Positions 44,347-62,930 of a stretch of 64,000 nucleotides of DNA are shown piece after piece (positions within the stretch are counted from its first letter, which is position 1; each line of letters begins with the position of its first letter). A model generated the notes under the pieces. It was not told where the DNA came from. It searched no databases and saw nothing but the letters and a program-made list of their open reading frames with translations. The DNA lies in assembly GCA_029194665.1 (NCBI GenBank), contig JARFXO010000007.1:124001-188000 (forward strand), given 5' to 3'. A program made the position numbers and the translations under genes. This stretch comes from Nitrospira sp. Its GTDB lineage: Bacteria; Nitrospirota; Nitrospiria; Nitrospirales; Nitrospiraceae.

Positions 44347-45552
44347 ATGAGCAGGATACTGATCTCCTATCGCCGCGAGGATAGTGCCGATGTCACGGGG
44401 CGGATCTACGACCGGCTCGTCCAACAGTTCGGCGCAGGGTCAATCTTCAAGGATGTCGATTCCATTCCATTCGGGGTCGATTTTCGGAAGTATTTGGATG
44501 AGCAGGTCGCCAAGTGCGATGTCTTCCTCGCGGTGATTGGGCGGGATTGGGTGAAAAAACGGGGCAGTAAGGGCAAGTCCAGACTCGATGACCCGGGAGA
44601 TTTCGTCCGCATTGAGGTCGAGTCGGCGCTCAAGCGCCAGATTCCTGTGATTCCAGTACTGGTCAGTAGGGCTGCCATCCCACCCGCTGATCGGCTCCCG
44701 GAGAGCATTCGAGATTTGTCCTACCGTCACGGCATCGAGGTACGTCCTGATCCCGATTTTCACCGGGACATGGATCGATTGATCGAGTATCTCAAGCAAC
44801 AGGTTCGTGCCCAAAGCGAACCTCAGCCGAAACCGGATGAGCAATCTAAACATGATTTCAAAGAGAGGAAGCTAGGCCACTCTGCCGCGCCAGTGGAGAT
44901 GGTGATCGTGCCGAAAGGGCCATTCTTGTACGGTGAACAGAAAACTCGTGAATCGATCGACTATGACTATTGGATAGACAAGTATCCCGTAACCAACCAG
45001 CAGTATGGAGCATTCATCACGGCTCGCGGCTATGAAAATCAGCACTACTGGTCATCTGAAGGGTGGGAGTGGAAAACCAAGAATAACATCACAGATCCTC
45101 GATATTGGAATGACGTGAAATGGAACAAAGCAGATCATCCTGTGGTGGGTGTGACTTACTATGAGGCAGAAGCCTTTGCCAAGTGGACTGGCAAGCGGCT
45201 CCCGACCGAGCAGGAATGGGAAAAGGCTGCACGGGGCAAAGATGGATGGGAGTACCCCTGGGGGGACCAGTTCAACAAGGAGAAATGCAACAGCGTGAAG
45301 ACAGGTCTTAGCCTCACGACGCCGGTGACTCAGTATCCCAAGGGAGTCAGTCCCCATGGGTGCTGTGACATGGCAGGGAATGTTTGGGAATGGTGTACGA
45401 GTTGGTACGAACAAGCAGCCGGCCGGCGCGTGGTCCGCGGTGGTTCCTGGGGTAACAAACCGGAGTTCTTGCGTGCATCGCTCCGGTACGGGAGCAGCGT
45501 CGGCGGCCGGGACTCCGGCATCGGCTTCCGCCTTGCCCAGGACATTCCATAA
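44347..45552 (+). CDS. TIR-FGE/C-type-lectin fusion, candidate DGR target protein
   Basis: 401 residues. TIR domain (1-160): ILISYRREDSAD, VFKDVDSIPFG-like BB loop (IFKDVDSIPFG) and a glutamate in DFVRIEVESAL matching the catalytic site of NAD-cleaving TIRs. After a linker comes an FGE-sulfatase/C-type-lectin domain (about 180-400): VPKGPFLYG, YWIDKYPVTNQQYG, RLPTEQEWEKAARG, GCCDMAGNVWEW, RGGSWGNK, IGFRL. The catalytic cysteine region of true FGE enzymes is absent (RYGSSVGG), so this is probably a ligand-binding fold. Codons near the C-terminus (45454-45519) are mostly NNC at positions where related proteins are asparagine-rich, as expected for a diversity-generating retroelement variable region. 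No reverse transcriptase was found in the window. N-terminal TIR plus sensor suggests a receptor-effector. Confidence 0.9.
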   Translation: MSRILISYRREDSADVTGRIYDRLVQQFGAGSIFKDVDSIPFGVDFRKYLDEQVAKCDVFLAVIGRDWVKKRGSKGKSRLDDPGDFVRIEVESALKRQIPVIPVLVSRAAIPPADRLPESIRDLSYRHGIEVRPDPDFHRDMDRLIEYLKQQVRAQSEPQPKPDEQSKHDFKERKLGHSAAPVEMVIVPKGPFLYGEQKTRESIDYDYWIDKYPVTNQQYGAFITARGYENQHYWSSEGWEWKTKNNITDPRYWNDVKWNKADHPVVGVTYYEAEAFAKWTGKRLPTEQEWEKAARGKDGWEYPWGDQFNKEKCNSVKTGLSLTTPVTQYPKGVSPHGCCDMAGNVWEWCTSWYEQAAGRRVVRGGSWGNKPEFLRASLRYGSSVGGRDSGIGFRLAQDIP

Positions 45553-48376: not shown

Positions 48377-48481
48377 ATGAGCAAGATCCTGATTTCCTAT
48401 CGCCGCGAGGATAGCGCCGACGTCACTGGGAGGATCGACGACAAGGGCCATGAGAGACGATCAACCTTTCTGTTGGAGTGA
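48377..48481 (+). pseudogene. Truncated TIR gene copy
   Basis: The first 66 bases align with the start of the TIR-FGE gene at 44347 (same ILISYRREDSADVTGRI protein start, about 85% identity by eye), then diverge into an unrelated 12-codon end with TGA at 48481. It lies just before the intact DUF4231 gene, repeating the TIR-DUF4231 order of 44347-45805. Confidence 0.85.
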
Positions 48482-48501
48482 ACGACTCGATGGAGGAGCC
48501 T

Positions 48502-49053
48502 ATGAATAATCTAAGCAAGACGACAGACCATGAGTCCATGCGGGCCGAGATGGACAAGCTCATCGCATCCCTGGATTTGCCGGAACTGAACAAGGAGTTT
48601 ATGCGGGCGCGGTGGTTGGAGCTGGTCATTTGGATGGATGGGAAGGCGCAGGAGTCCGTCTGGTGGTATCGCAGGCTGCGTCTGGCGACGATCATCGGCG
48701 GCGTGATCGTACCGTCGCTGGTCAGCCTGAACTTCAGCAGCGAGATGCAAGGGCTGGTTCAAGCGATCACGTTCATCGTCAGCCTTGTGGTGGCGATGAG
48801 TGCGGCCGTGGAGGAGTTCTTTCGCTATGGCGAGCGGTGGCGGCACTATCGCCGGATGACCGAGTCGCTCAAGAGCGAAGGCTGGCAGTTTCTCCAGCTG
48901 AGCGGAAGCTACGCCAACCAGACCCATATTCAAGCCTATCCAGCCTTCGCGACGCGGGTTGAGGCGCTGAGCCGCGAAGAGGTTGAGTCCTACATCACAC
49001 AGGTGTTCAAGGACAAAAAGGAGGCGGACGAGAAGACATCTTCCGTGACATGA
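48502..49053 (+). CDS. SLATT/DUF4231 membrane protein
   Basis: 183 residues. Helical N-terminus (LPELNKEFMRARWLELVIWMD, about 34-54), two membrane helices (about 70-90 and 97-120), then a cytosolic helical part (WRHYRRMTESLKSEGWQFLQL). This fits the DUF4231/SLATT group of two-helix membrane proteins found with nucleotide-signal sensors and TIR or CHAT proteins in bacterial conflict loci, where they are predicted pore or membrane effectors. Start ATG 48502 has GGAGG 5 bases upstream. Effector role is inference from family context. Confidence 0.75.
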   Translation: MNNLSKTTDHESMRAEMDKLIASLDLPELNKEFMRARWLELVIWMDGKAQESVWWYRRLRLATIIGGVIVPSLVSLNFSSEMQGLVQAITFIVSLVVAMSAAVEEFFRYGERWRHYRRMTESLKSEGWQFLQLSGSYANQTHIQAYPAFATRVEALSREEVESYITQVFKDKKEADEKTSSVT

Positions 49054-49143: not shown

Positions 49144-49578
49144 ATGGATAGTCCAGTTAGGAAAGTGTTTCTGAGTTATGCACGGGCTGATCGAGAGCAT
49201 GCCCAAAAACTTGGTGACCGTTTGCGGCAAGCCGGTTTGGAGGTTTGGGATCCCGAGCAGGAACTGCTTCCCGGCTCGGATTTCGCCGCGGATCTGGAGA
49301 AAGCGTTGAATAGGGCTGAGGCGATCGTCCTGTTCGTTTCGCCTGATGCCATGGAATCCCGGTGGGTATCTCATGAAATCGAATATGCATTAGGAGCCAA
49401 ACATTTACGCGGACGGCTGATTCCGGTTGTCGTCCGCCCAACCGAGCAAATGCCCTGGATTCTGAAAACCCTCCAGATGATCCGTTACGAGGAGCCCGGC
49501 AAGACCAGCCGACGCATTGTTGAATTGCTGACCCACCCCCAAGATACCCGTGAAACGAAGCGTCGCCAAGCCAACTGA
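49144..49578 (+). CDS. TIR domain protein
   Basis: 144 residues, one TIR domain: VFLSYARADREHAQ (strand A and first helix), VWDPEQELLPGSDF (BB loop), IVLFVSPDAMESRWVSHEIEYAL with the glutamate that matches the catalytic residue of NAD-hydrolysing TIRs, then LIPVVVRP. No sensor or other domain, so it may act with the next gene or be activated by a partner. The downstream TIR gene overlaps by 29 bases. Confidence 0.88.
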   Translation: MDSPVRKVFLSYARADREHAQKLGDRLRQAGLEVWDPEQELLPGSDFAADLEKALNRAEAIVLFVSPDAMESRWVSHEIEYALGAKHLRGRLIPVVVRPTEQMPWILKTLQMIRYEEPGKTSRRIVELLTHPQDTRETKRRQAN

Positions 49579-49975
49579 AGTCTTCCTGTCACATTCCAGC
49601 AAGAATCTCGCCTTTGCGAGTCGGTTGGCGAAGACGCTCAGCGCCCATCGCGTGGGGACCTTCTTCAGCAAGAAGAATATCCAAGGCGCTCAACAATGGC
49701 ATGATGAAATCGGAGCCGCGTTGAAACGATGCGACTGGTTTGTGGTCGTGCTCTCGCCGCATTCGGTCTCCTCCAAGTGGGTCAAGCATGAATTGATCTA
49801 TGCTTTGCAAGCACACCGCTTCAAGGAGCGGATCGTTCCGATCCTGTACAAGACCTGCGATGCGGACAAACTCTCATGGACTCTTTCCAGCTTTCAATGG
49901 ATTGACTTTCGAAAAGATTTTGATCAAGGTTGTTACGAACTCTTACGTATCTGGAACATCAAATATGGTCGTTAG
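49550..49975 (+). CDS. TIR domain protein (second of overlapping pair)
   Basis: 141 residues. TIR features VFLSHSSKNLAFASRL, TFFSKKNIQGAQQW, WFVVVLSPHSVSSKWVKHELIYAL with a matching catalytic-type glutamate, and RIVPILYK. GTG start inside the preceding TIR gene (29-base overlap), so translation is likely coupled and the two may form a heteromer. The two TIRs differ too much to be a recent tandem duplication. Confidence 0.87.
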   Translation: MKRSVAKPTEVFLSHSSKNLAFASRLAKTLSAHRVGTFFSKKNIQGAQQWHDEIGAALKRCDWFVVVLSPHSVSSKWVKHELIYALQAHRFKERIVPILYKTCDADKLSWTLSSFQWIDFRKDFDQGCYELLRIWNIKYGR

Positions 49976-50077: not shown

Positions 50078-52063
50078 ATGAAACCCCATGCCTTTGTCGC
50101 GATGCCGTTTGGCGTGAAAAAAGACAACCAAGGCACTGAGATTGACTTCAATCGCGTCTATTCGGAGCTGATTAAACCGGCACTGGAAGCCGCAGGGCTC
50201 GAGGTGTTCCGAGCGGACGAAGAGGAGCGAGCCGGCGACATTCGCACGGACATGTTTCAAGAGTTGCTCATCGCGGACCTGGTGGTCGCGGATCTCACGA
50301 TCGACAACCCCAATGTCTGGTATGAACTCGGTGTGCGCCACGCGTTGCGTGCAAGGGGCGTCGTTTTAATCAGTGGTGGGCGAGTGACCACCGCCTTTGA
50401 TCTCTATACCGATCGCAAACTCCGGTACTCCATCAAAGGTCTCGGCCCGGATCCCGCAACGTTGGAACAGGATCGGGTAGTCCTTACCAAGATGGTACAG
50501 GCGACCATGGAATCCTGGCACGGTCGCAAGGTGAGCCCGGTCTATAATCTCCTGCCGTATCTTCAAGAGCCTGATTGGAAGTCACTCCGGCTCGGCGACG
50601 CGCGGGAATTTTGGGAACGGCATAAGGACTGGGAACGACGTATCGGTTTAGCCAGAAAAGCAGGTCAGATCGGAGATGTGCTCGTGCTCGCCGACGAGGC
50701 GCCGATCGCCGCTTTTCGTGCCGAAGCTTGGCTCACTGCGGGCGAAGCGTTGCGTAAGGCCGAACGATTCACGTTTGGACTGGAACAACTGGAACGAGGC
50801 CTCGCCATCGAGCCCCACAATTTGCGAGGGCTCCGGGAGAAGGGGATCTGTTTGCAACGGCTGGCATTAGAGGGCAAGCCCGGTCATTCGCTGGATCGCG
50901 CACGGACCCATTATCGAGAAGTGCTGGACGCGTTTCCAACCGATCCCGAAACCTGGGCGCTGCTCGGACGTGTGGACAAAGATGCCTGGGTGACGGCCTG
51001 GCAGCAATCGGGAAAGACACCGCAACAGTTGCGGGATGACGCGGCCTATGAAGATGCGTTGCTGCGGGCGGCGATCGAAAGCTATGCCACCGCCTACCGC
51101 CGCTATCCAGGTCATTACTACTCCGGCATCAACGCCCAGACCCTCATGCAGCTGTATCGGTACCTCACCCAGGAGGCACGGTACGACAAAGAGATGGCGA
51201 CAATGGCCGGAGCCGTGCGGTTTGCGGCTGAGATGGAAACTGATCCTAACCAAGCCTTCTGGGCCAAGGCGACGCTCGGCGATCTCGAAGTCCTGGTCGG
51301 GACCGCGGACAGTACCAAAGTTGCCTTCAAGGAGGCTCTCGCCAAGAACGACAAGGATTGGTTTGCGCTCAAATCAAGTCGTGCACAGTTGCAACTTCTC
51401 AAAGATCTAGGATTCCGGCTGGACAATGTGGAGGCCGGCATCACCGTTTTTGATCGAGCGTTACAGAAGCTCCAAAAACCGGAAGATAAGTGGCAGCCGA
51501 GACAGGTGTTCCTCTTCAGCGGGCATATGATCGACTCGCCGACCAGGCCAACTCCGCGCTTTCCCGCATCCAAGGAACCGATTGTGGTGCAGAAAATTGC
51601 CGAAGCCTTACAGAAACTCGGAGCCGGTCCCGAGGATTTGGCCCTCACCCAGGGTGCCTGTGGCGGTGATTTGTTATTCACCGAGGCCTGTCAGCAGCGA
51701 GGGGTGAGGGTGCAGTGGCTGCAACCGTTCGACGAGCCGGACTTTATCCAGAGATCCGTGGTCTGTCGGGGCGAAACCTGGCGCGATCGGTACTTGGCTG
51801 CCAAAGCAAAGCTTACAACAACCCTGATCGGCATTCGCTCAGCACCAGGCGAACTCGGTCCTCCACCGAAGGGCGTCGATCCCTATGAGCGCTGTAATCT
51901 CTGGCTACTCTATACGGCATTGTCGTATGGCATCAGCAGGGTGCAGTTCATCTGCCTCTGGGACGGCGGGGGAGGGGACGGTCCCGGCGGCACCGCCCAC
52001 ATGTACCGCGAAGTGAATCGCCGGACTGGTCAAGTCACCTGGATTGATAGCCGCGCTCTTTAA
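50078..52063 (+). CDS. TIR/NDT-like - DUF4071 (TRAFs-binding) - SLOG-like protein
   Basis: 661 residues. N-terminal domain (1-130) starts FVAMPFG and contains LIADLVVADLTIDNPNVWYELGVRHAL, the glutamate-bearing core of the TIR/nucleoside deoxyribosyltransferase superfamily. Middle (about 180-450): helical, TPR-like DUF4071 (TRAFs-binding) region with AWLTAGEALRKAERFTFGLEQLERGL. C-terminus (about 475-661): VFLFSGHMIDSP, LALTQGACGGDLLFTEACQQRGVRVQWL, consistent with a SLOG nucleotide-sensing Rossmann fold. It could sense a nucleotide signal and cleave NAD-like substrates. A sister protein lies at 58939. Confidence 0.83.
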   Translation: MKPHAFVAMPFGVKKDNQGTEIDFNRVYSELIKPALEAAGLEVFRADEEERAGDIRTDMFQELLIADLVVADLTIDNPNVWYELGVRHALRARGVVLISGGRVTTAFDLYTDRKLRYSIKGLGPDPATLEQDRVVLTKMVQATMESWHGRKVSPVYNLLPYLQEPDWKSLRLGDAREFWERHKDWERRIGLARKAGQIGDVLVLADEAPIAAFRAEAWLTAGEALRKAERFTFGLEQLERGLAIEPHNLRGLREKGICLQRLALEGKPGHSLDRARTHYREVLDAFPTDPETWALLGRVDKDAWVTAWQQSGKTPQQLRDDAAYEDALLRAAIESYATAYRRYPGHYYSGINAQTLMQLYRYLTQEARYDKEMATMAGAVRFAAEMETDPNQAFWAKATLGDLEVLVGTADSTKVAFKEALAKNDKDWFALKSSRAQLQLLKDLGFRLDNVEAGITVFDRALQKLQKPEDKWQPRQVFLFSGHMIDSPTRPTPRFPASKEPIVVQKIAEALQKLGAGPEDLALTQGACGGDLLFTEACQQRGVRVQWLQPFDEPDFIQRSVVCRGETWRDRYLAAKAKLTTTLIGIRSAPGELGPPPKGVDPYERCNLWLLYTALSYGISRVQFICLWDGGGGDGPGGTAHMYREVNRRTGQVTWIDSRAL

Positions 52064-52335: not shown

Positions 52336-53172
52336 ATGGCCAAACGAGCGGTGCTCATCGGGATCAACAAGTATCGGGTTCCTGGGTCGGATCTGAACGG
52401 CTGTGTCAATGACGTGAAGAACCTGAGTGGGGTGCTGAAGTCATACTATGGTTTTGCGGATAAAGACATCGCGACCCTTACCGATCTGAAGGCAACGAAG
52501 AAGGCGATGCAATCGGCGATCCAGAAACTGATTGCGAGCGGAAAGAAGGGCGATGTCCTGCTCCTCCATTATTCTGGGCATGGGTCGAATGTGCCGGATG
52601 ACAACGGCGACGAAGCGGACCATCGGGATGAGATCTTGTGCCCGACCGATCTGGATTGGAAAGACACGCTGCGCGATGATTGGCTTCGAAAGACGTTCGA
52701 TAAACTTCGATCGGGGGTGAGCCTCACGGTGATCATGGACTGTTGCCATTCCGGCAGCATCACTCGTGCTATCACGCCGCCGGATGCACCAAGAAGAGAG
52801 CGGTTCCTTCCTTGCCCACTCGACCTCATGGCAACCGAGTCCGGCAGAAAGCTGCGTGGGGTCCTTCGAAGCCAGCTGGGAAAGGCGCCACGCGGACGCC
52901 AGCGAAGGAGCGATATCGTCCATGCGGATATTCAAGAGTTGTTGATCACCGGCTGTCGGGATGCCCAAACGTCAGCCGATGCCGATATCGGAGGGACCTA
53001 TAACGGGGCCTTGACCTATTACTTAGTTGAGGCGATCAAAGAAGCTGAGGGCAAATTGACCTATCGGGAGCTCCATCAGCAGACAGTCACGAAACTGAAG
53101 AAGAACGATTTCGATCAGGTTCCACAACTGGAAGGGCGGAAGACTTCATTCGATCGCCAATTTCTCAGTTAA
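52336..53172 (+). CDS. Metacaspase/caspase-family (peptidase C14) protein
   Basis: 278 residues. Catalytic histidine in LLLHYSGHGSNVPD (about 75-88) and cysteine in VIMDCCHSGSI (about 133-143), the caspase-fold dyad, plus the N-terminal RAVLIGINKY and LNGC segments common to metacaspases. Start ATG 52336 has AAAGGAG 5 bases upstream; the longer frame (52222) has none. Sits 73 bases before the large CHAT gene; the two together would supply two caspase-like proteases of the island. Substrate unknown. Confidence 0.9.
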   Translation: MAKRAVLIGINKYRVPGSDLNGCVNDVKNLSGVLKSYYGFADKDIATLTDLKATKKAMQSAIQKLIASGKKGDVLLLHYSGHGSNVPDDNGDEADHRDEILCPTDLDWKDTLRDDWLRKTFDKLRSGVSLTVIMDCCHSGSITRAITPPDAPRRERFLPCPLDLMATESGRKLRGVLRSQLGKAPRGRQRRSDIVHADIQELLITGCRDAQTSADADIGGTYNGALTYYLVEAIKEAEGKLTYRELHQQTVTKLKKNDFDQVPQLEGRKTSFDRQFLS

Positions 53173-53245: not shown

Positions 53246-56200
53246 ATGAGTACCAAGCTCCGGATTTTCGGCCTACCTACCTCAACGGAGAACGCTAAAA
53301 CTGCGGTTCGAGGGGAGTTGCTTCCCGAGCGCGCTGATCAATCCGAGGGTCACTTGCTTGATGCTGTAGAGGTTCTTGGTGCCTTTGATGTGGGTGCAAC
53401 GGCTCGCGCCGCAGGTGAGGGGCCCATCGCGATTGATGCCGAAGATGACGATCTCATCGAGTTCGTCCTCGAAGACGGCGTATCGATTTGGACATCGGTC
53501 GCAGCCTATCGAGATCGACGATATCGGTTGAAGCCAGAATTGCGAAAAACGAAGGAACTGGACATCGAATCGGTTCTTGGACCTGGCACTCCGAGCAGAG
53601 GAGTGAGGTCGGATATCGCGACAGGTGCGTTGCGAATCCTACGGCTGAAACGGGATGAGATCTGGGAGCAGGCGGAAGATCCAGCTAAATGGCCGGACTG
53701 GCTCAAACAGTACGGGTTTACCAAATTTGATGCACTCGGAAGCTGGCTCACGACGAAGCTCATCATCTGGCTGATCGAGAAACAACTTGATCCTCAAGAA
53801 GGACTCTATCGTTGGGCGAAGCCACAGTCAGAACATGCTCCCGCGCTGACATCTCCTGGCACGATCCATTCAGGTAAACCTCTTCTGCTTTTCATCCATG
53901 GAACGGCGTCCAGTACGAAAGGCAGTTTTGGAGGGCTGCACACGGACGATGCCTCCTCCGAATGGGAGGCGCTCACACAAACCTTCAAGGATGACATTTA
54001 CGCCTTTGAACACCGCACCATGAGTCAGAGCCCGATCGATAATGCGTTGACTCTGGCGAACGCACTTCCGGACGGAGCGCAACTGTCTCTGGTTTCACAT
54101 TCGCGCGGGGGGCAGGTTGCCGACTTACTGTGTCTTCAGGAGCTGTCGTCCGAACATATCGGTCAGTTCAGGCGGAAAGGCGGCCCATCGATCCAGGCAG
54201 ACCAACATGATCGCAAGCAGTTGGCAGAGCTCGCGAAAGTTCTTCAACGGAAAAAGTTTCAAATCACTCGGCTCATCCGTGTGGCGTGCCCCACGCAAGG
54301 GACGTTGCTGGCCTCGGAGAATTTGGATCGCTTTCTCTCAGTCTTGACCAGCCTGATCGGTCTGATTCCCGGCGTCGGCCAGTCTCCGCTGCACCATGTT
54401 GCCAAGCGCATCACGCTCGAAGTGGTCAAGGGCCGCTGGAATCCATCCCAGCTTCCGGGCCTTGAGTCGATGGTTCCCCGATCCCCTCTCGTTGCGTTGC
54501 TCAATCACCCGGAGATTGCGGCTGCCGGTGACCTCGGCGTCGTGGCAGGAGACATTGAAGGTGAAAACTGGTTCAAACGGTTGGGGGTCTTCATGACCGA
54601 CGCCTTCTTGTATGAGAATCAAGACAATGACCTGGTTGTCAACACTCAATCCATGTTCCATGGGGTGCGCCGCGTCAGGGCGTCCCGCTATGTTTTCGAC
54701 CAGGGGTCCGATGTCTCGCATTTCCGCTATTTCAGGAATGCCCGCACTCGCCATTTACTGGTTCAGTCGATTACGAACTCCGGGGAGCAATGGCCTCCTG
54801 AATTTCGCTCGCTCGAAGAAGCCAAGGTGGAACCGGTTCCCATGTTGCGTTCCATTCAAACGAGATCCGGGGCCAGCCAGCCGGTGGTGTTCGTGCTTCC
54901 GGGAATCATGGGTTCGGAGTTGCAGGCAGATGGTGAGGATGTGTGGTTGAGTTATTGGAGCCTCCTCCGGGGCCATATCGGCAAAATCGCCATGGGTGCA
55001 CCGAACGTCACCGTCCCTCGACTTGTCAGCTCCTACTACCGCGCCCTGTGCGACTATCTGGCGGATTCCCATGAAGTCATCCCCTTCGGCTACGATTGGC
55101 GTCACTCCATTACACTGGCCGCCTCTCAGCTGGCAGGCGAAGTGAAAAAGGTAGCGGAACGGACTCGTGAGCCGATCCGATTCATCGCCCACAGTATGGG
55201 CGGCCTGGTGGTTCGTCGGTTCATCCATGACCACCCGGAACTCTGGACGGCGTTGTGTGAGCGGAAGGGGTCCCGGTTTATCATGCTCGGAACGCCCAAC
55301 CGAGGATCCTACGATATGGTCGAGTCACTGTCCGGAATGGCAAAGACAGTGAAGCAACTTGCCTTACTCGATCTTGATCACACCACGAGCGAAATCGTGG
55401 ACATTGTAGCAGCCTATCAGGGTGCGCTCGAACTCTTGCCCCATGAAAAGGACGAGAAGAACAATTGGAAATACTTTTCAGCCGACACCTGGGCAGGGCT
55501 ACGGCCGGTCATGGAGTCGAAAGTCCGGCTCAACGCACAGCTACTTTCGGCCGCAAAGACCGCCGTCCAGGACCTTCCCGAAAAGATCCCCCACGCCGAT
55601 TGTATTCGCTATGTGGCGGGATGGGCCCCCAAGACCGTATGCGGAATACAGGTCGCGGACGGTCGCCTGCTCTTTCAAGCCACGGCAGAAGGCGACGGAC
55701 GCGTGACCTACAAAGCGGGCCTTCTTCCGGACATTCCCGTTTGGTATGTCGATGCCGAGCACGGCGACTTAGCGGACCACCAGCCCGCGTTCGCTGCCTA
55801 TCGAGAATTACTCGATGAAGGCGTGACCACTCGCCTCTCCACATCGCCGCTGAGCGCCGATCGAGGCGGCGCCTCGATCTTCGAGTATGAATCCGAGCCC
55901 GTCCTCTATCCCACCGCAGCCGACTTGGAGGCCGGTCTTCTCGGCAAAAAACAGAAATCCCTCCAAGTACGGACCTCTGACAAGCTCCGTGTATCCGTGT
56001 TGCACGGAGATCTCAAGCACACCAATCATCCCATCCTGATGAGCCACTACGAAGGCGACACCATTGCCGGAGCGGAGCGGATCGTAGACGGCCTTGTCGG
56101 GAAGGCCTTGTCGCAACGCTACCACTTGGGCCGTTATCCGGGACGATCGGGGACGGTGGCCGTCGTGCTGGCCCCGCCCAATGCTATTCAGAAATCCTTG

Positions 56201-58882
56201 GGTGTGCAACATGGCGCGATTGTCATCGGACTCGGCAAGTGGAGCGTATTGAGGCCTTCGGCACTCACCCAAGCCGTCCAGCAGGGTGTGATGGAGTATG
56301 GCCTGCACATCAACCAGTCCAACGGCTTGGCGGACCCATCGATGGGGGCATCGGGACTCACGATCAACAGTTTGCTGATCGGATCAAATACCTCCGCCAA
56401 CATTGCCGTGGAGGATTCGGTCAATGCCATTGTGCGCGGCGTCGTTTTGGCCAATCGTGCCCTCGCAAATCCTTCCGTCAAGAAAGAGAACCATGCATTG
56501 CCTCGCGTGACACACATCCAGTTCGTCGAACTCTATCTCGATGTAGCGGTCGATGCGGCAAAGTCCATACAGCGCGTGGCCAAGCGTATCGAACGCGAAC
56601 TCGAAACGGAGCTTGAGGTGGATCCTCGATTAAATAAGGGCAAAGACGGTCAGACCCGGCTGGTTCCGACGAGCAGCGAAGGGTACTGGCGCCGGTGGAC
56701 CATCACTGCGGTCCCCAACGTTCCTGCTCCCGAAGCCGTGAGCCTGCCGCCAGCCCTGAAGCATCGCCTCCGCACCATATTGCAAGCGGATCCGGAAAGA
56801 GATCCTCAGATTTGGAATGCCCTCCTTGAGTTAGGCTTCAGAGAGGAGAAACACGCACCTCGCCGGCCTTTCAAACTCCGGTATCTTGCCCTCTCAGACA
56901 GAGCGAGAGCTGAAGTCACCGTGCAAGAGAACCAGCCTGAACTGATCGCTCAACTGATTCAACGATCCATCAGGCAACCGACGTTCAAGCAAGATATGGC
57001 CAAAACGCTCTTCCAATTATTGATTCCTCCCGACCTCAAGGACAGCCTCCTCAACCAGGATCGTGTGGTCTTCATTCTCGACGACGTGACGGCCAACTAT
57101 CCCTGGGAGCTGATGATTGATACGGACAAGCCCCTCTGCGTTCGGATGGGCATGATCAGGCAACTTGAAACCGTCGACTACGATAAGCGCCCGCGAGACA
57201 CCACTTCAACCAGCGCGTATGTGGTCGGAGATCCCCTCACTCCCTCCAACTATCCGGAGCTTCCTGGTGCTAGGAAGGAAGCGGAGCTCGTAGCTTCCTT
57301 GCTAAGCAAGGGTAAATATGAAGTGACCCACTCTAATCAACGGCTTGGAGCCCTCGAAGTCTTGAACCAACTCTTTGCTCGACCCTATCGCATCATCCAC
57401 ATTGCCGGACATGGCTATTACAGCGAGGCGGACATTGAAACGGCTGGGGCGAAGGCCGGCGTCGTGCTCGACGACGGCCTCTTTCTCACCGCCGCAGAGA
57501 TAGCGATGCTGGATCCGATTCCGGAACTCGTGTTCCTCAACTGTTGCTACCTCGGTCAGATCGGCGGTACCGCCTACAATAAGATGGCCGCCAGCATCTC
57601 TCGCGAATTGATCAGGAAAGGCGTGCGAGCAGTCGTGGCAGCTGGGTGGCCTGTTCGAGACGACGCGGCCCTCTGTTTTGCGCAAGCGTTCTATACGAAA
57701 CTCCTCGAGAACCGTTCCTTCGGTCGAGCGCTGGAAGAAGCCAGACGGCAAACGTGGACGAGATTTCCGGAATCCAACACATGGGGGGCATATCAGGCCT
57801 ATGGAGATCCGGATTTCTGCCTCGATCCAGCTTCGCGAGCGTATGCCCTCGATCTTGACGATGTTCCCGTTGCCGTCGAGGAAGCCCTCGTCAAGCTCGA
57901 ACGACTTTCTCGCAACGAAAACCCCGTCAAAATTCAGCAGAGCTGTGCGTCAGACTGGTTGAAACAGGGACCTCTTCAGGAGCGACTCGGAGCGGTCTAC
58001 GGCGAGCGCGGCTTCTTCAAAGAAGCCACCCAACATTACAAACAGGCGGCCGAAAGCGAAGATTCTTCAAATCCTGCGACATTACGTGCGATTGAACAAT
58101 GGATCAACCTCACCGTACGGCTCGGAGAGACAGACGGTGACACGACAATAATCGATACGGCTATCGAGAGAGGCAAGCATCTTCTCGCCATTGCGGAGAC
58201 GGCAGAACGGCTGAACATCATGGGCAGCGCCTATAAGAGACTGGCACGACTGGAAAGCGATCCCTCCAAGATGAACACTCACCTGGAACAGTCGGCTGGT
58301 TATTACCGCCGAGCGGCCAAGCGGCTCCAGGACGAAGGAACACCGGATCCCTATCCGATCATCAATGAACTGGTAGTCCAGGCTCTGTTAGGGAAGAAGG
58401 GGTTCGATATCGAATCGTTGCTCGCGAAATGCGAGTCTCTGGCGCAACAGCGGTTTTACGCGACACGCAGTGCATGGGATGCGGTCACCATCGCCGATGT
58501 GGCACTCATCCGAGCGTTTCTTCGGCGGACACTCTTACAGGAAGGGGATACTCTTGTCGCGCAGTATCGATCGGCCTTTGCCGAATCGGCTGCATCTCAG
58601 CGAGAACAGGATTCAGCTCTGACTCAGATGACATTCGTAAGAGATATCCTCAAGAAACTTCCTTTTTCTAGGGAACAGGCCATCAAAACGACCATTGAAT
58701 CTTTGGAGTATATCCGAGAGCAGTTGCAGCCACAGAAGAAGGCTGAGGATCCTGCACGAATCACAACAAAACAGTCTGCCGCCTCATCATCGAGTTCAAA
58801 GACCTCGACCAAACGGAAACCGGCGAAGAATCCCGGTCGGGAGAAGGCGGCGCGTCGGTTCAAGCCGGCAAGAAAACGCTAG
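53246..58882 (+). CDS. 1878-residue multidomain protein: alpha/beta hydrolase - LCAT-like - CHAT - TPR
   Basis: Domain order by motifs: alpha/beta hydrolase (about 205-500; LLFIHGTASS near 212, SHSRGG near 284); second, LCAT-like hydrolase (540-760; VFVLPGIMGSEL near 545, AHSMGGLVVRRF near 648, FIMLGTPNRGS); a region (about 905-1110) reminiscent of a macro-like/M17 N-terminal fold; CHAT protease (about 1265-1520; histidine in IIHIAGHGYYS near 1382, cysteine in FLNCCYLGQI near 1429); TPR-like helices (1540-1830); and a Lys/Arg-rich tail (about 1840-1878). CHAT is a caspase-fold peptidase; LCAT proteins are acyltransferases or phospholipases. AGGAG 5 bases before the ATG. Linking two esterase-type and one protease domain in one chain suggests a self-processing lethal lipase. 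That mechanism is inferred. Confidence 0.88.
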   Translation: MSTKLRIFGLPTSTENAKTAVRGELLPERADQSEGHLLDAVEVLGAFDVGATARAAGEGPIAIDAEDDDLIEFVLEDGVSIWTSVAAYRDRRYRLKPELRKTKELDIESVLGPGTPSRGVRSDIATGALRILRLKRDEIWEQAEDPAKWPDWLKQYGFTKFDALGSWLTTKLIIWLIEKQLDPQEGLYRWAKPQSEHAPALTSPGTIHSGKPLLLFIHGTASSTKGSFGGLHTDDASSEWEALTQTFKDDIYAFEHRTMSQSPIDNALTLANALPDGAQLSLVSHSRGGQVADLLCLQELSSEHIGQFRRKGGPSIQADQHDRKQLAELAKVLQRKKFQITRLIRVACPTQGTLLASENLDRFLSVLTSLIGLIPGVGQSPLHHVAKRITLEVVKGRWNPSQLPGLESMVPRSPLVALLNHPEIAAAGDLGVVAGDIEGENWFKRLGVFMTDAFLYENQDNDLVVNTQSMFHGVRRVRASRYVFDQGSDVSHFRYFRNARTRHLLVQSITNSGEQWPPEFRSLEEAKVEPVPMLRSIQTRSGASQPVVFVLPGIMGSELQADGEDVWLSYWSLLRGHIGKIAMGAPNVTVPRLVSSYYRALCDYLADSHEVIPFGYDWRHSITLAASQLAGEVKKVAERTREPIRFIAHSMGGLVVRRFIHDHPELWTALCERKGSRFIMLGTPNRGSYDMVESLSGMAKTVKQLALLDLDHTTSEIVDIVAAYQGALELLPHEKDEKNNWKYFSADTWAGLRPVMESKVRLNAQLLSAAKTAVQDLPEKIPHADCIRYVAGWAPKTVCGIQVADGRLLFQATAEGDGRVTYKAGLLPDIPVWYVDAEHGDLADHQPAFAAYRELLDEGVTTRLSTSPLSADRGGASIFEYESEPVLYPTAADLEAGLLGKKQKSLQVRTSDKLRVSVLHGDLKHTNHPILMSHYEGDTIAGAERIVDGLVGKALSQRYHLGRYPGRSGTVAVVLAPPNAIQKSLGVQHGAIVIGLGKWSVLRPSALTQAVQQGVMEYGLHINQSNGLADPSMGASGLTINSLLIGSNTSANIAVEDSVNAIVRGVVLANRALANPSVKKENHALPRVTHIQFVELYLDVAVDAAKSIQRVAKRIERELETELEVDPRLNKGKDGQTRLVPTSSEGYWRRWTITAVPNVPAPEAVSLPPALKHRLRTILQADPERDPQIWNALLELGFREEKHAPRRPFKLRYLALSDRARAEVTVQENQPELIAQLIQRSIRQPTFKQDMAKTLFQLLIPPDLKDSLLNQDRVVFILDDVTANYPWELMIDTDKPLCVRMGMIRQLETVDYDKRPRDTTSTSAYVVGDPLTPSNYPELPGARKEAELVASLLSKGKYEVTHSNQRLGALEVLNQLFARPYRIIHIAGHGYYSEADIETAGAKAGVVLDDGLFLTAAEIAMLDPIPELVFLNCCYLGQIGGTAYNKMAASISRELIRKGVRAVVAAGWPVRDDAALCFAQAFYTKLLENRSFGRALEEARRQTWTRFPESNTWGAYQAYGDPDFCLDPASRAYALDLDDVPVAVEEALVKLERLSRNENPVKIQQSCASDWLKQGPLQERLGAVYGERGFFKEATQHYKQAAESEDSSNPATLRAIEQWINLTVRLGETDGDTTIIDTAIERGKHLLAIAETAERLNIMGSAYKRLARLESDPSKMNTHLEQSAGYYRRAAKRLQDEGTPDPYPIINELVVQALLGKKGFDIESLLAKCESLAQQRFYATRSAWDAVTIADVALIRAFLRRTLLQEGDTLVAQYRSAFAESAASQREQDSALTQMTFVRDILKKLPFSREQAIKTTIESLEYIREQLQPQKKAEDPARITTKQSAASSSSSKTSTKRKPAKNPGREKAARRFKPARKR

Positions 58883-58938: not shown

Positions 58939-60243
58939 ATGACTACCTGTTTTGTCGTCCAAGGTTTCGGGAAGAAGACGGACTTCACTGACGGTCGTGT
59001 ACTCGATTTGGATGCCTCCTACGCCATTATTAAGGAAGCGGTTGAGGTGGCTGGACTCAAGTGTATCCGTGCCGACGAGATTCAGCATTCCGGCACCATC
59101 GATCTGCCGATGTACCAGCAACTGTTACAGGCGGATTTGGTGATAGCGGATCTTTCGACGTACAACGTCAATGCCGCCTTCGAACTGGGCGTGCGTTATG
59201 GACTCAGGCCCCATGCCACCATCATCGTCGCCGAGGAGGGCTTCAAGAATCCGTTTGATGTCGGTCATATCGTCATCCGGCGTTATAAGCACCTGGGAGA
59301 GGATATCGGTACAAAGGAGGCGAAGCGGTTCCGTGACGATCTCAAGCAGGCCATCGCGGAGATCCTTGCCGAGCCCAAGACCGACAGTCCGGTCTATACC
59401 TTCTTGCCTCGGCTAAGCCCGCCGCGGGAGGAGCAAGCGGCGGCTTCGGTTGAGCTGAAGGCAGCTGCGGCTGCGACAGGCGGAACGCGAGGATCGGTTG
59501 GCTTCAACCAGAATGGGACCGATGCCGGCCCGGCTGCGCAAAGCGCCAAGTCCTCATTGGATGCCGCCTTGGAGAGGATTGCGGCAAGTGACTTCGTCGC
59601 CGCCTGTCCGCTGATGGAGGAGGTTCATAAGCAACGGCCCAACGACAGCTTCATCGTCCAGCAGCTCGCGCTGGCAACCTATAAGGCCAAGCAGCCGACC
59701 CCCGAAGCGGCTCTGCTCAAGGCCAAAAAGATTCTTGAGGAACTGTCGCCGGCTACGACCAACGATCCGGAGACGTTGGGGCTGTGGGGCGCGATTCACA
59801 AACGGCTGTGGGATCTCAATGGTCAGAAGTCAGACCTGAACGAGAGCATCGTGGCCTATGAGCGTGGGTTCTATCTCAAGCAGGACTACTACAACGGCAT
59901 CAACCTCGCGCTCTTGCTTGACCTTCGAGGATTGATTGCCCTCAAGGCTGGCCAACGCGATGAAGGCGTCGCGGACGTCGTGCAAGCCAGGCGAATCCGA
60001 CGTGATGTGATTCGCTATGCTGAGCAGGCGCTTGCGAACGATATGACGGACGACAAACGCTACTGGGTTGTCGCGACGCTTTGGGAAGCAACGATGGGAT
60101 TGCGCGACGAAGCGGAGGCGCAAAAGTGGCGGGCCCGGGCGCGAGCGCTAAGGGTGCCGGCCTGGATGCTCGAAACCACTGAGAGCCAGATCCGCTCCAG
60201 CCAGGCGAGGTTGCTGGAGATTGCGCAGCTGAGCGCCCAATGA
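58939..60243 (+). CDS. TIR/NDT-like - DUF4071 (TRAFs-binding) protein
   Basis: 434 residues. N-terminal domain (1-130): CFVVQGFGKKTDF, LLQADLVIADLSTYNVNAAFELGVRYGLR with the superfamily glutamate in FELG, and FDVGHIVIRRYKH. After a low-complexity linker (about 170-200, A/E/G-rich) comes an alpha-solenoid DUF4071-like region (about 205-420). It is the sister of the protein at 50078 but lacks the C-terminal SLOG part. It directly follows the CHAT gene (56-base gap). Ribosome site GGGAGG about 10 bases before the ATG. Confidence 0.83.
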   Translation: MTTCFVVQGFGKKTDFTDGRVLDLDASYAIIKEAVEVAGLKCIRADEIQHSGTIDLPMYQQLLQADLVIADLSTYNVNAAFELGVRYGLRPHATIIVAEEGFKNPFDVGHIVIRRYKHLGEDIGTKEAKRFRDDLKQAIAEILAEPKTDSPVYTFLPRLSPPREEQAAASVELKAAAAATGGTRGSVGFNQNGTDAGPAAQSAKSSLDAALERIAASDFVAACPLMEEVHKQRPNDSFIVQQLALATYKAKQPTPEAALLKAKKILEELSPATTNDPETLGLWGAIHKRLWDLNGQKSDLNESIVAYERGFYLKQDYYNGINLALLLDLRGLIALKAGQRDEGVADVVQARRIRRDVIRYAEQALANDMTDDKRYWVVATLWEATMGLRDEAEAQKWRARARALRVPAWMLETTESQIRSSQARLLEIAQLSAQ

Positions 60244-60304: not shown

Positions 60305-61441
60305 ATGAGCGAGCATCTGAACGCCCGCATCACGGCCAAAGGACCAAAGAAAATTCTTGCCCTCGACGGCGGCGGGATTCGCGGCATGATGACCATCGAG
60401 GTGCTGGCGCAAATCGAGAACCTTCTGCGGAAAAACCTGAACAAGGGAGAGGGTTTTCGACTGGCCCACTTCTTTGATTTCGTCGCGGGCACGAGTACGG
60501 GAGCGATCATCGCGGCCTGCATTTCCTATGGCATGAAGGTGTCCGAGATCCGTGATTTCTATATCAGTAGCGGCGAGAAGATGTTCGATAAAGCCTTTGT
60601 GCTCAAACGCTTTCGCCATAAGTATGAGGATGAGAAGCTTGCGGAAAAGTTACAAGAGGTATTCGGCAAGGACACCACGCTGGGGAGTGACAAGCTGCAG
60701 ACGGTCCTCATGATGGTTATGCGCAACGCCACGACGGATTCCCCGTGGCCTATGTCGAATAATCCCTTTGCGAAGTACAACCAGCGGGACCGAAAGGACG
60801 GCAATCTCAATATTCCGCTGTGGCAACTGATCCGTGCGAGTACAGCGGCGCCGGTGTATTTCCCCCCTGAAGTAGTGACGTTCGCTCCGGGAACGCCGAA
60901 GGAGTATCAATTTATCTTCGTCGATGGTGGGATTACTATGTACAACAATCCCTCCTTCCAAGCCTTTCTGATGGCGACTGTGGAGCCGTATAAGATGGGG
61001 TGGGCGACCGGGGAGGAGCAGTTGCTGGTGGTGTCAATCGGCACTGGGACTAGTCCTCAGGCGAATTTCAATTTGGCACCTGAAGAGTTGAATGTGATGT
61101 ACAACGCCACATCGCTGCCTTCTGCGTTGATGTATGCTGCGCTCAATGAACAGGATTTGCTGTGCCGGGTCTTTGGGAACTGTTTGGCCGGGGATCTGCT
61201 CGATCGAGAGGTGGGGGATCTCATCGGGAAGAAGGGGCCGGTTTCACCCAAACTCTTCACCTATATGCGCTATAACGCAGAGCTCAGCAAACAAGGCCTC
61301 GCCGATCTGGGGTTGAGTGAGATCAAACCAGAAGATGTGCAACAACTGGATTCCGTCGAGCACATCGACAAGCTGCTGCGCGTGGGCCAAGCCGTCGCGA
61401 CGCGCAAAGTGTCGCCGGAGCACTTCAAGGGATTTGTTTGA
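60305..61441 (+). CDS. Patatin-like phospholipase
   Basis: 378 residues. Patatin features in order: oxyanion loop DGGGIRG (about 19-25), nucleophile GTSTG (about 64-68), PVYFPPEV, and the DGG aspartate in FVDGGITMYNNP (about 206-208). The Ser-Asp dyad looks intact, so it is probably an active phospholipase A. Cytosolic, no signal peptide. Patatins are common effectors in anti-phage defence (CBASS and related systems), where they degrade membranes after a signal. AGGAGG precedes the ATG. Follows the DUF4071 gene by 61 bases; its activating partner may be encoded nearby. Confidence 0.92.
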   Translation: MSEHLNARITAKGPKKILALDGGGIRGMMTIEVLAQIENLLRKNLNKGEGFRLAHFFDFVAGTSTGAIIAACISYGMKVSEIRDFYISSGEKMFDKAFVLKRFRHKYEDEKLAEKLQEVFGKDTTLGSDKLQTVLMMVMRNATTDSPWPMSNNPFAKYNQRDRKDGNLNIPLWQLIRASTAAPVYFPPEVVTFAPGTPKEYQFIFVDGGITMYNNPSFQAFLMATVEPYKMGWATGEEQLLVVSIGTGTSPQANFNLAPEELNVMYNATSLPSALMYAALNEQDLLCRVFGNCLAGDLLDREVGDLIGKKGPVSPKLFTYMRYNAELSKQGLADLGLSEIKPEDVQQLDSVEHIDKLLRVGQAVATRKVSPEHFKGFV

Positions 61442-61481
61442 AGCAGCCGTACGGCCGAGATCGTTGGTCAGGACTGGTGAG

Positions 61482-62930
61482 ATGACGCAGCCTATGAATG
61501 GCCGGACTCGAATCTTCATCAGCTATCGTCGGGATGATGCTCGCGGCGCCAGTGGTCGGCTCTACGACTGGCTGCGCATCGCCTTCGGGCGGGATCAGGT
61601 GTTTCGTGATGTCGCCAGTATAGGAGCAGGTAAGTGGCGTCTCAAAATCGATCAGGCGTTGGCCGCCTCAGCCGTCTGCTTGTCAGTGATCGGCCTTCGT
61701 TGGTGCGATGCGACCAACGGCCCTCGTCTCGCTGACGAACATGACATGGTTCGTCACGAACTCGTGACCGCCCTGGCCCATTCCGCTCAGGGGCTTACCA
61801 TCATTCTGACATTGGTAGAAGGAGCCAAGGTTCCCAAGAAGGCCGACCTACCCACAGAACTCCACGAGCTTGTTGAGTGGAATGCCTATCCTCTCAGTGA
61901 GGAAGGTTGGGAAGACGATGTTCGCCGTTTGATCGGTGCGGCCGCCGAGTGTACTGGTCAGGCGCCGGCGGCGGATGTCGATACGTTAATCACCCGAGTG
62001 GGCGAAGCCGAGGCGCGCATGCGGGCGATGGAGCAGGAAAAACACCTCCAAACCGATCAGATCCGTGCCCTGACAGGGACCGTTGTCGCATTGACCGGGC
62101 AGTTGGCGGAACGTCCGGCATCGCAGAGGGCTGAGCTCATCACTGCCGCGCTGGAAGCACTGGGCCGTGGAGACACAGCCGGTGCCGAAGCGGAATTCGA
62201 GCGGGTGCTGCGAGAGCGGAGCGTGGCAGCTCAAGTCGCAGCGCACGAGGCCGCAGAGGCGGCACGTCACATCGCCAACCTGGCGTTGCTGAGCGACATC
62301 GGCAAGGCGGTGCGCTACTATCGCCGCGCATGCGAACTGGAACCCAGTCATGCCAATAGCTGGCGTCTTCTCGGGCAGGCTCAGATGCTCGTGGGGAATA
62401 CCAATGAGGCGAACCATGCCCTCACCCGTGCGCTGGAGGAAGCTGAAAGGAGCAGCGATAGCTGGGATCGGATGGTGGCTTTGACCATTCTAGGCGATCT
62501 CGCTTTACGCACTGAACACCTCGGCGAAGCGTTGGAGCGGTATACCGCGGCGCGGAATATTGTAGTGGAGGAGGCGGCACGCGATCCTGCCAACACCGAG
62601 TGGCAGCGGGACCTTTCCGTCAGTCACAACAAGATCGGTGATGTGTTGGTGGCGCAGGGGGACGGGCCGGGCGCCCTCACGGCGTACCGCAAAGGGCTCG
62701 CGATTGGTGAAGCGCTGGCGGCACGCGATCCCGCCAACACCCAGTGGCAGAATGATGTTGCTGTTTCCTGCGCCAAACTCGGTACGCACGCGGGCATCAC
62801 GGCCGATGAGCGGCGGAGTTATCTGCAGCGCGGTCTCAAGATTCAGCAGAATTTGAAAACGAGTGGTCGTTTAGCGCCTAACCAGGACTGGATTGGCTGG
62901 TTCACTGAGCGGCTGAACGAAATCAAGTAG
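61482..62930 (+). CDS. TIR - coiled coil - TPR protein
   Basis: About 482 residues. TIR domain (1-145): IFISYRRDDARGASGRLYDWL, VFRDVASIGAG, DEHDMVRHELVTAL with the catalytic-type glutamate, LTIILTLVEGAK. Then a coiled coil (about 165-210; VGEAEARMRAMEQEKHLQTD) and TPR-like repeats (215-480), the last of the YTAARNIVVEEAARDPANTEWQRDLSVSHNKIGDVL type. Start set at ATG 61482 by homology; its ribosome site is weak, and an ATG at 61494 is an alternative. It is the last gene of the co-directional run. Confidence 0.85.
   Translation: MTQPMNGRTRIFISYRRDDARGASGRLYDWLRIAFGRDQVFRDVASIGAGKWRLKIDQALAASAVCLSVIGLRWCDATNGPRLADEHDMVRHELVTALAHSAQGLTIILTLVEGAKVPKKADLPTELHELVEWNAYPLSEEGWEDDVRRLIGAAAECTGQAPAADVDTLITRVGEAEARMRAMEQEKHLQTDQIRALTGTVVALTGQLAERPASQRAELITAALEALGRGDTAGAEAEFERVLRERSVAAQVAAHEAAEAARHIANLALLSDIGKAVRYYRRACELEPSHANSWRLLGQAQMLVGNTNEANHALTRALEEAERSSDSWDRMVALTILGDLALRTEHLGEALERYTAARNIVVEEAARDPANTEWQRDLSVSHNKIGDVLVAQGDGPGALTAYRKGLAIGEALAARDPANTQWQNDVAVSCAKLGTHAGITADERRSYLQRGLKIQQNLKTSGRLAPNQDWIGWFTERLNEIK

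Follow-up and report, generated by a model that had tools for sequence, protein, structure and literature searches.

Most known bacterial immune effectors kill by one activity. The tetratricopeptide repeats-sensor (TPR-S) family was reportedly predicted by Burroughs & Aravind 2020 (J Bacteriol) to sense NAD+-derived signals, and the conflict systems built on it resemble the locus described here in placing TPR-S beside TIR- or DRHyd-type NAD+-processing enzymes and in fusing the effector to the sensor. In Type IV Thoeris, as outlined in PMC12847820 after Rousset et al. 2025, a TIR-made NAD+ product activates a caspase-like protease encoded nearby. The same pairing of TIR and caspase-like genes in a one-strand operon occurs in the window (the whole 64,000-nucleotide stretch of Nitrospira DNA analyzed here), with TIR genes starting at 49144 and 49550, a caspase gene at 52336, and a CHAT protease gene at 53246; the Type IV Thoeris effector, however, is a protease, and lipase domains do not appear in that outline.

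The TPR-CHAT of Craspase and the SAVED-CHAT of type III CRISPR combine a CHAT protease with a regulatory sensor and are activated by infection (PMC9729208, PMC11417357), whereas the protein encoded at 53246 (hereafter, the giant) carries a C-terminal TPR-S and fused lipases. These systems were rejected because there were no gRAMP/Cas, SAVED, or other CRISPR parts among the scanned neighbors; the match of the giant to the PADLOC SAVED_CHAT model was partial and covered the CHAT region only. Kaur et al. 2020 (PMC7159879) noted that caspase-superfamily domains of VMAP systems always have an adjacent alpha/beta-hydrolase gene and considered joint action of the two probable. The predicted joint work of a caspase-superfamily protease and an alpha/beta hydrolase is shared with our locus, but VMAP ternary systems use separate genes together with MoxR, vWA, and VMAP, in contrast to one chain holding CHAT, two hydrolases, and TPR-S, and this assignment was rejected because none of the MoxR, vWA, or VMAP genes was found among the scanned neighbors. 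In nuclease-protease pairs and Canu, a partner protease turns on an effector made as a proenzyme (PMC12799240); there, the nuclease has a separate gene and the protease is of the trypsin or caspase type, whereas in the giant the lipases are fused to CHAT. The elements of the giant, including the caspase/hydrolase pairing, are already known from predicted conflict systems; the single-chain combination of two hydrolases, CHAT, and TPR-S was not found in the literature searched, and Burroughs & Aravind 2020 could list it.

Domain layout of the giant protein

The giant (1878 aa) is encoded by an unbroken open reading frame with an ATG start (53246–58882, + strand) in a 4.8 Mbp genome and, based on the ORF call, Pfam, and homologues, has the layout ABH1-ABH2-M17_N-CHAT-TPR-S (form A). 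An earlier note on this DNA had read two alpha/beta hydrolases, a CHAT protease, and tetratricopeptide repeats from the letters and had suggested a domain search. Pfam returned DUF7379, LCAT, CHAT, and TPR-S in this order, confirming that list except for a macro-like Peptidase_M17_N between ABH2 and CHAT that had been overlooked, and assigning the repeats specifically to TPR-S, a family predicted to sense signals. No NCBIfam model matched the giant. The protein is probably cytoplasmic, because mean hydropathy does not exceed 1.5 in any 19-residue window and the N-terminus is unlike a signal peptide. Its C-terminal tail (~aa 1822–1878; window 58709–58879) is Lys/Arg-rich, a feature also present in L007 and L044 and absent from more distant homologues.

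The first hydrolase, ABH1 (53858–54775, +), is of the DUF7379 type (Pfam 1.1e-35, aa 214–304), and the second, ABH2 (54863–55855, +), of the LCAT/group XV phospholipase A2 type (Pfam LCAT 1.8e-9, aa 610–741), with a PDB profile match to LPLA2 (1.8e-6). Phospholipid would be the likeliest substrate of ABH2, since its nearest solved relatives in the profile search include group XV phospholipase A2 and LCAT. The serine elbows noticed earlier are real (SHSRGG, aa 284–289; AHSMGG, aa 648–653), and the triads S286 (54101)-D462 (54629)-H492 (54719) and S650 (55193)-D817 (55694)-H839 (55760) are invariant in all 13 A-forms of a 24-row alignment. The hydrolases may instead deacylate a protein, a signal lipid, or a phage product, with CHAT/TPR-S regulating them in a stress or developmental response. 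Such a role would agree with the weak matches, and no others, of ABH1 to the PDB and with the LCAT/PGAP1/palmitoyl-thioesterase-like families that match the hydrolase region and include non-lytic deacylases, but we consider it very unlikely given the cell-killing type of neighbors (SLATT, patatin, TIR, and caspase), the patchy spread of the lipase half (19 of 236 genomes of the order), and plasmid carriage. Judged from sequence, neither incomplete triads nor housekeeping relatives, which the note had named as refutation, came to light.

The CHAT domain (56990–57808, +; Pfam 4e-36, aa 1249–1521) matches the profile of this clan CD cysteine peptidase family and has the His-Cys dyad, H1389 (57410) and C1434 (57545), that the note had called intact; it is invariant in the 13 homologues and across the shorter forms B and C described below. 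C1434 is the likely nucleophile because form C has NAC at the position of NCC in form A. Pfam and the alignment together place two lipase-type triads and a protease dyad on one conserved chain. TPR-S (aa 1591–1709; 58016–58372, +; Pfam 1.5e-13) scored 51.7 bits against a curated cut-off of 27.6, and the linkage of this family to NAD+-processing enzymes is seen here in the TIR and DRHyd-like neighbors.

Peptidase_M17_N is the macro-like N-domain of leucine aminopeptidases. The corresponding region of the giant (~aa 909–1100; 55970–56545, +) was assigned from relatives whose Pfam scores pass the threshold (L055, L057, L066, and the L079 stretch) and from an hhalign match of 94.8% between the A-form alignment and PepA N-domains. 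Neither the M17_N nor the CHAT region had a significant match when searched by profile against the PDB. M17_N and CHAT are the sole core common to all forms of the family, so M17_N may be a further sensor besides TPR-S, much as His-ADPR is the signal to which the macro domain of ThsA responds in type II Thoeris (PMC12847820).

Structure prediction was uninformative because the alignments were shallow. The AlphaFold model of aa 1–905 (3 sequences) reached a pLDDT of 35.6 with no usable ABH fold, and that of aa 900–1878 (9 sequences) 47.9 with no usable CHAT fold (pLDDT ~28 in the CHAT region); a Foldseek search with the latter model retrieved generic helical repeats.

Conservation and forms of the family

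Homologues with the same domain order, which the note had proposed to look for, were found in two phyla at 1767–1879 aa. Full-length identity is 64–67% over the whole chain in other Nitrospira-family genomes, ~33% in other Nitrospirota families, and ~32% on plasmids of Azotobacter, Ensifer, and Paracoccus. Pfam confirmed the order DUF7379-LCAT-CHAT in L045, L086, L087, L060, and L062, with TPR-S above the cut-off in L045, slightly under it in L086 and L087, and undetected in L060 and L062; the Azotobacter and Paracoccus members are without a Pfam match to TPR-S. Values of dN/dS were about 0.07–0.28 in each domain with measurable dS, some dS values being near saturation, and were highest in TPR-S. 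Together with the invariant residues, these values indicate purifying selection that maintains the active sites of both lipases and of the protease. The fusion is an old, selected architecture, because triads and dyad are invariant in 13 homologues from Nitrospirota and proteobacterial plasmids. A chance fusion or an assembly artifact has next to no probability: full-length conservation among close and distant orthologues excludes the former, and order and length are kept across many genomes of two phyla with invariant catalytic residues and low dN/dS. Searches of phage records and IMG/VR found no relatives.

Two shorter forms accompany form A. Form B (M17N-CHAT-TPR-S, ~940–1016 aa) is without lipases, and form C (ABH2-M17N-CHAT, ~1030–1057 aa) has one lipase and is without TPR-S. 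In the window, a caspase-like (C14) protease gene (52336–53172, +; 278 aa; Pfam 1.4e-34) lies directly upstream of the giant, and neighbor conservation extends this arrangement to all forms in Nitrospira, where a gene 81–90% identical to it directly precedes form A (window, L007, and L008), form B (L011–L014 and L017–L022), and form C (L030, L031, L033–L036, and L039), some of these loci being copies of one record. The caspase is better conserved than the CHAT protein; it has no counterpart at L044 or next to A-forms from outside the Nitrospira clade.

This constancy bears on a rival explanation, modelled on the protease cascades of CRISPR type III-B, in which the caspase is chiefly what CHAT cuts or what switches CHAT on and the lipases are an add-on, carried on the same chain and not released by cleavage. 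A caspase that is more constant than the CHAT protein upstream of two-, one-, or no-lipase forms speaks for such a cascade, and form B presumably works without lipases; the missing caspase beside L044 and the A-forms of other clades, and the strict conservation of both lipase sites, speak against it, and we regard this explanation as unlikely.

The flanks of the locus in the window on both sides, a gene for a carboxypeptidase-like protein of 510 aa and one for an FKBP-like protein of 180 aa (named by eye), were found again at L053 (form B) and L057 (form C), while the right flank alone is common to L052 and L011 and the left flank to L013 and L058. Because flanks are shared between the window and form B and C loci, the forms are interchangeable at a single chromosomal position. 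The M17N-CHAT tree groups form C into a single clade and intermingles forms A and B; it requires at least two changes for form B (in Nitrospira and in Rhizobium), so the two-lipase head was gained or lost more than once.

Related arrangements were also found. On contig C5 of the same genome (L056:7588–11568), a CHAT-TPR gene is followed after ~20 nt by a separate LCAT-type hydrolase gene, which by its predicted domains is the same lipase/CHAT pair in an unfused state. On a Qingshengfaniella plasmid (L068:4839–7361), an ABH2-like region lies inside a gene annotated as a trypsin-like peptidase, which may thus be a further fusion of lipase and protease. Downstream in the B-form operons of both Nitrospira and Rhizobium is a similar-looking (by eye) ~258-aa protein that belongs to no clear Pfam family (L051:7530–8309, −; L011:3840–4616, +; L064:11479–12255, +).

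Genomic neighborhood of the giant

The giant lies in an island (48.5–62.9 kbp) whose genes are all on the + strand. Upstream are a SLATT/DUF4231 membrane protein, a possible pore-forming effector (48478–49053; Pfam DUF4231 9.6e-29, SLATT_3 8.4e-10), two TIR domain proteins (49144–49578, TIR_2 5.9e-28; 49550–49975, TIR_2 6.6e-27), and a protein (50078–52063) that combines a DRHyd-like domain (AMPFG; class by eye) with TPR-S (3.4e-13) and a further C-terminal domain, matches a PADLOC TIR effector, and is conserved in L052, L053, and L057. Downstream are a second DRHyd-like/TPR-S protein (58939–60243; TPR-S 1.6e-25, MAP3K_TRAF_bd 1.7e-9, and a weak Nuc_deoxyrib_tr match), a patatin-like phospholipase (60305–61441; Pfam 1.1e-25 and PADLOC), and a TIR-TPR protein (61482–62930, a likely start within ORF 61317–62930; TPR_2 6.1e-11, with TIR_2 at 1e-5 just below the cut-off). 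The three TPR-S domains of the genome all fall within 9.2 kbp at this island. The patatin is related to CBASS lipase effectors and scored 124.8 bits against the 200-bit family cut-off of the NCBIfam CBASS lipase model; CBASS was rejected because of this score and because no CD-NTase was found among the scanned neighbors.

Several other features of the region were recorded. The C-terminal domain of the 50078–52063 protein carries LFSGHMIDxPxRxxPRFP; fused here to DRHyd-like/TPR-S, it is encoded alone at L058:5984–6610 and L064:16967–17551, these stand-alone copies including one beside a Rhizobium TIR gene (47% identity). A fusion of TIR with a formylglycine-generating-enzyme-like domain is found at window 44347–45552, and a similar protein adjoins the L044 A-form, which has no neighboring caspase gene. 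A nonribosomal peptide synthetase cluster (window 28–26041, +) has three NRPS ORFs, of which one ends in a thioesterase, together with a TauD dioxygenase and a methyltransferase; genes for efflux (HlyD, AcrB-type, and OEP) come after it.

A TIR gene lies within 10 kbp of the giant in 7/7 Nitrospirota A-form genomes, where 0.01–0.13 would be expected (single-genome P 0.03 to 3e-11; three of the genomes represent one genus and are not independent). TIR and nSTAND1-WD40 genes adjoin both L086 and the Rhizobium form B, SIR2, nSTAND1, and a periplasmic-binding-type protein adjoin the Ensifer A-form, and SIR2 adjoins the Rhizobium form C. The Azotobacter A-form is next to a type I restriction cluster. 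The Paracoccus A-forms are partnered by a large gene, in one case with an SBP_bac_3 match, and no TIR was found among their listed neighbors.

Proposed mechanism

The domains with their invariant active sites, purifying selection, the likeness of ABH2 to LPLA2/LCAT phospholipases, nearby TIR and SIR2 genes, the grouping of all TPR-S domains of the genome, the unfused lipase/CHAT pair, plasmid carriage, restriction-gene neighbors, modular swapping at one site, and the constant upstream caspase support the view that the giant is an effector, and we consider it probable that it serves an NAD+-signal conflict system. That it is a cytoplasmic effector of an anti-phage or abortive-infection type of system, killing through lipases gated by the NAD+ signal, is our favored, somewhat less secure reading; the narrower claim that the lipases are the killing activity and are gated by the CHAT/TPR-S half is held with confidence slightly above even. 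Upon infection, the TIR/DRHyd enzymes would turn NAD+ into a small signal that may be bound by TPR-S, perhaps with M17_N, and would thereby activate CHAT. Active CHAT could then cut its own chain and/or the neighboring caspase, and the two lipases would attack membrane phospholipids, such that the cell is killed or arrested.

Signal-gated killing fits the TIR, DRHyd-like/TPR-S, caspase, patatin, and SLATT neighbors; for the release of the lipases by cleavage, proposed in the earlier note, no motif shared by the family was found. The candidate region is a poorly conserved linker (aa 871–908; 55856–55969, +) that marks the boundary of the lipase and protease halves in the alignment, with form B beginning directly after it. 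A basic cluster precedes M17_N in Nitrospirota and is absent from the Azotobacter, Ensifer, and Paracoccus members; it was therefore dropped as an autocleavage site, and no family-wide cleavage motif is left. The neighboring caspase would be just as good a candidate CHAT substrate as the linker, and form B has no lipases for CHAT to release. Activation of the giant by self-cleavage is accordingly doubtful. A more specific version, in which the giant is a single-chain pro-lipase gated by an NAD+ signal, with TPR-S and/or the macro-like M17_N binding the messenger and CHAT cutting the linker before M17_N to free a membrane-destroying tandem phospholipase, is in our estimate quite unlikely; if true, the giant would parallel protease-activated gasdermins and pro-nucleases, with lipases as the activated part, and M17_N would add a new type to the sensor domains of CHAT proteases.

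Within the giant family, a single polypeptide brings together a sensor, a protease, and two lipase sites, an arrangement conserved between Nitrospirota and plasmids of proteobacteria; the caspase gene stays the same while the lipase part behind it comes and goes. Comparing forms A, B, and C offers a natural experiment on the wiring between NAD+ signals, caspase-like proteases, and lipases in the death of bacterial cells.
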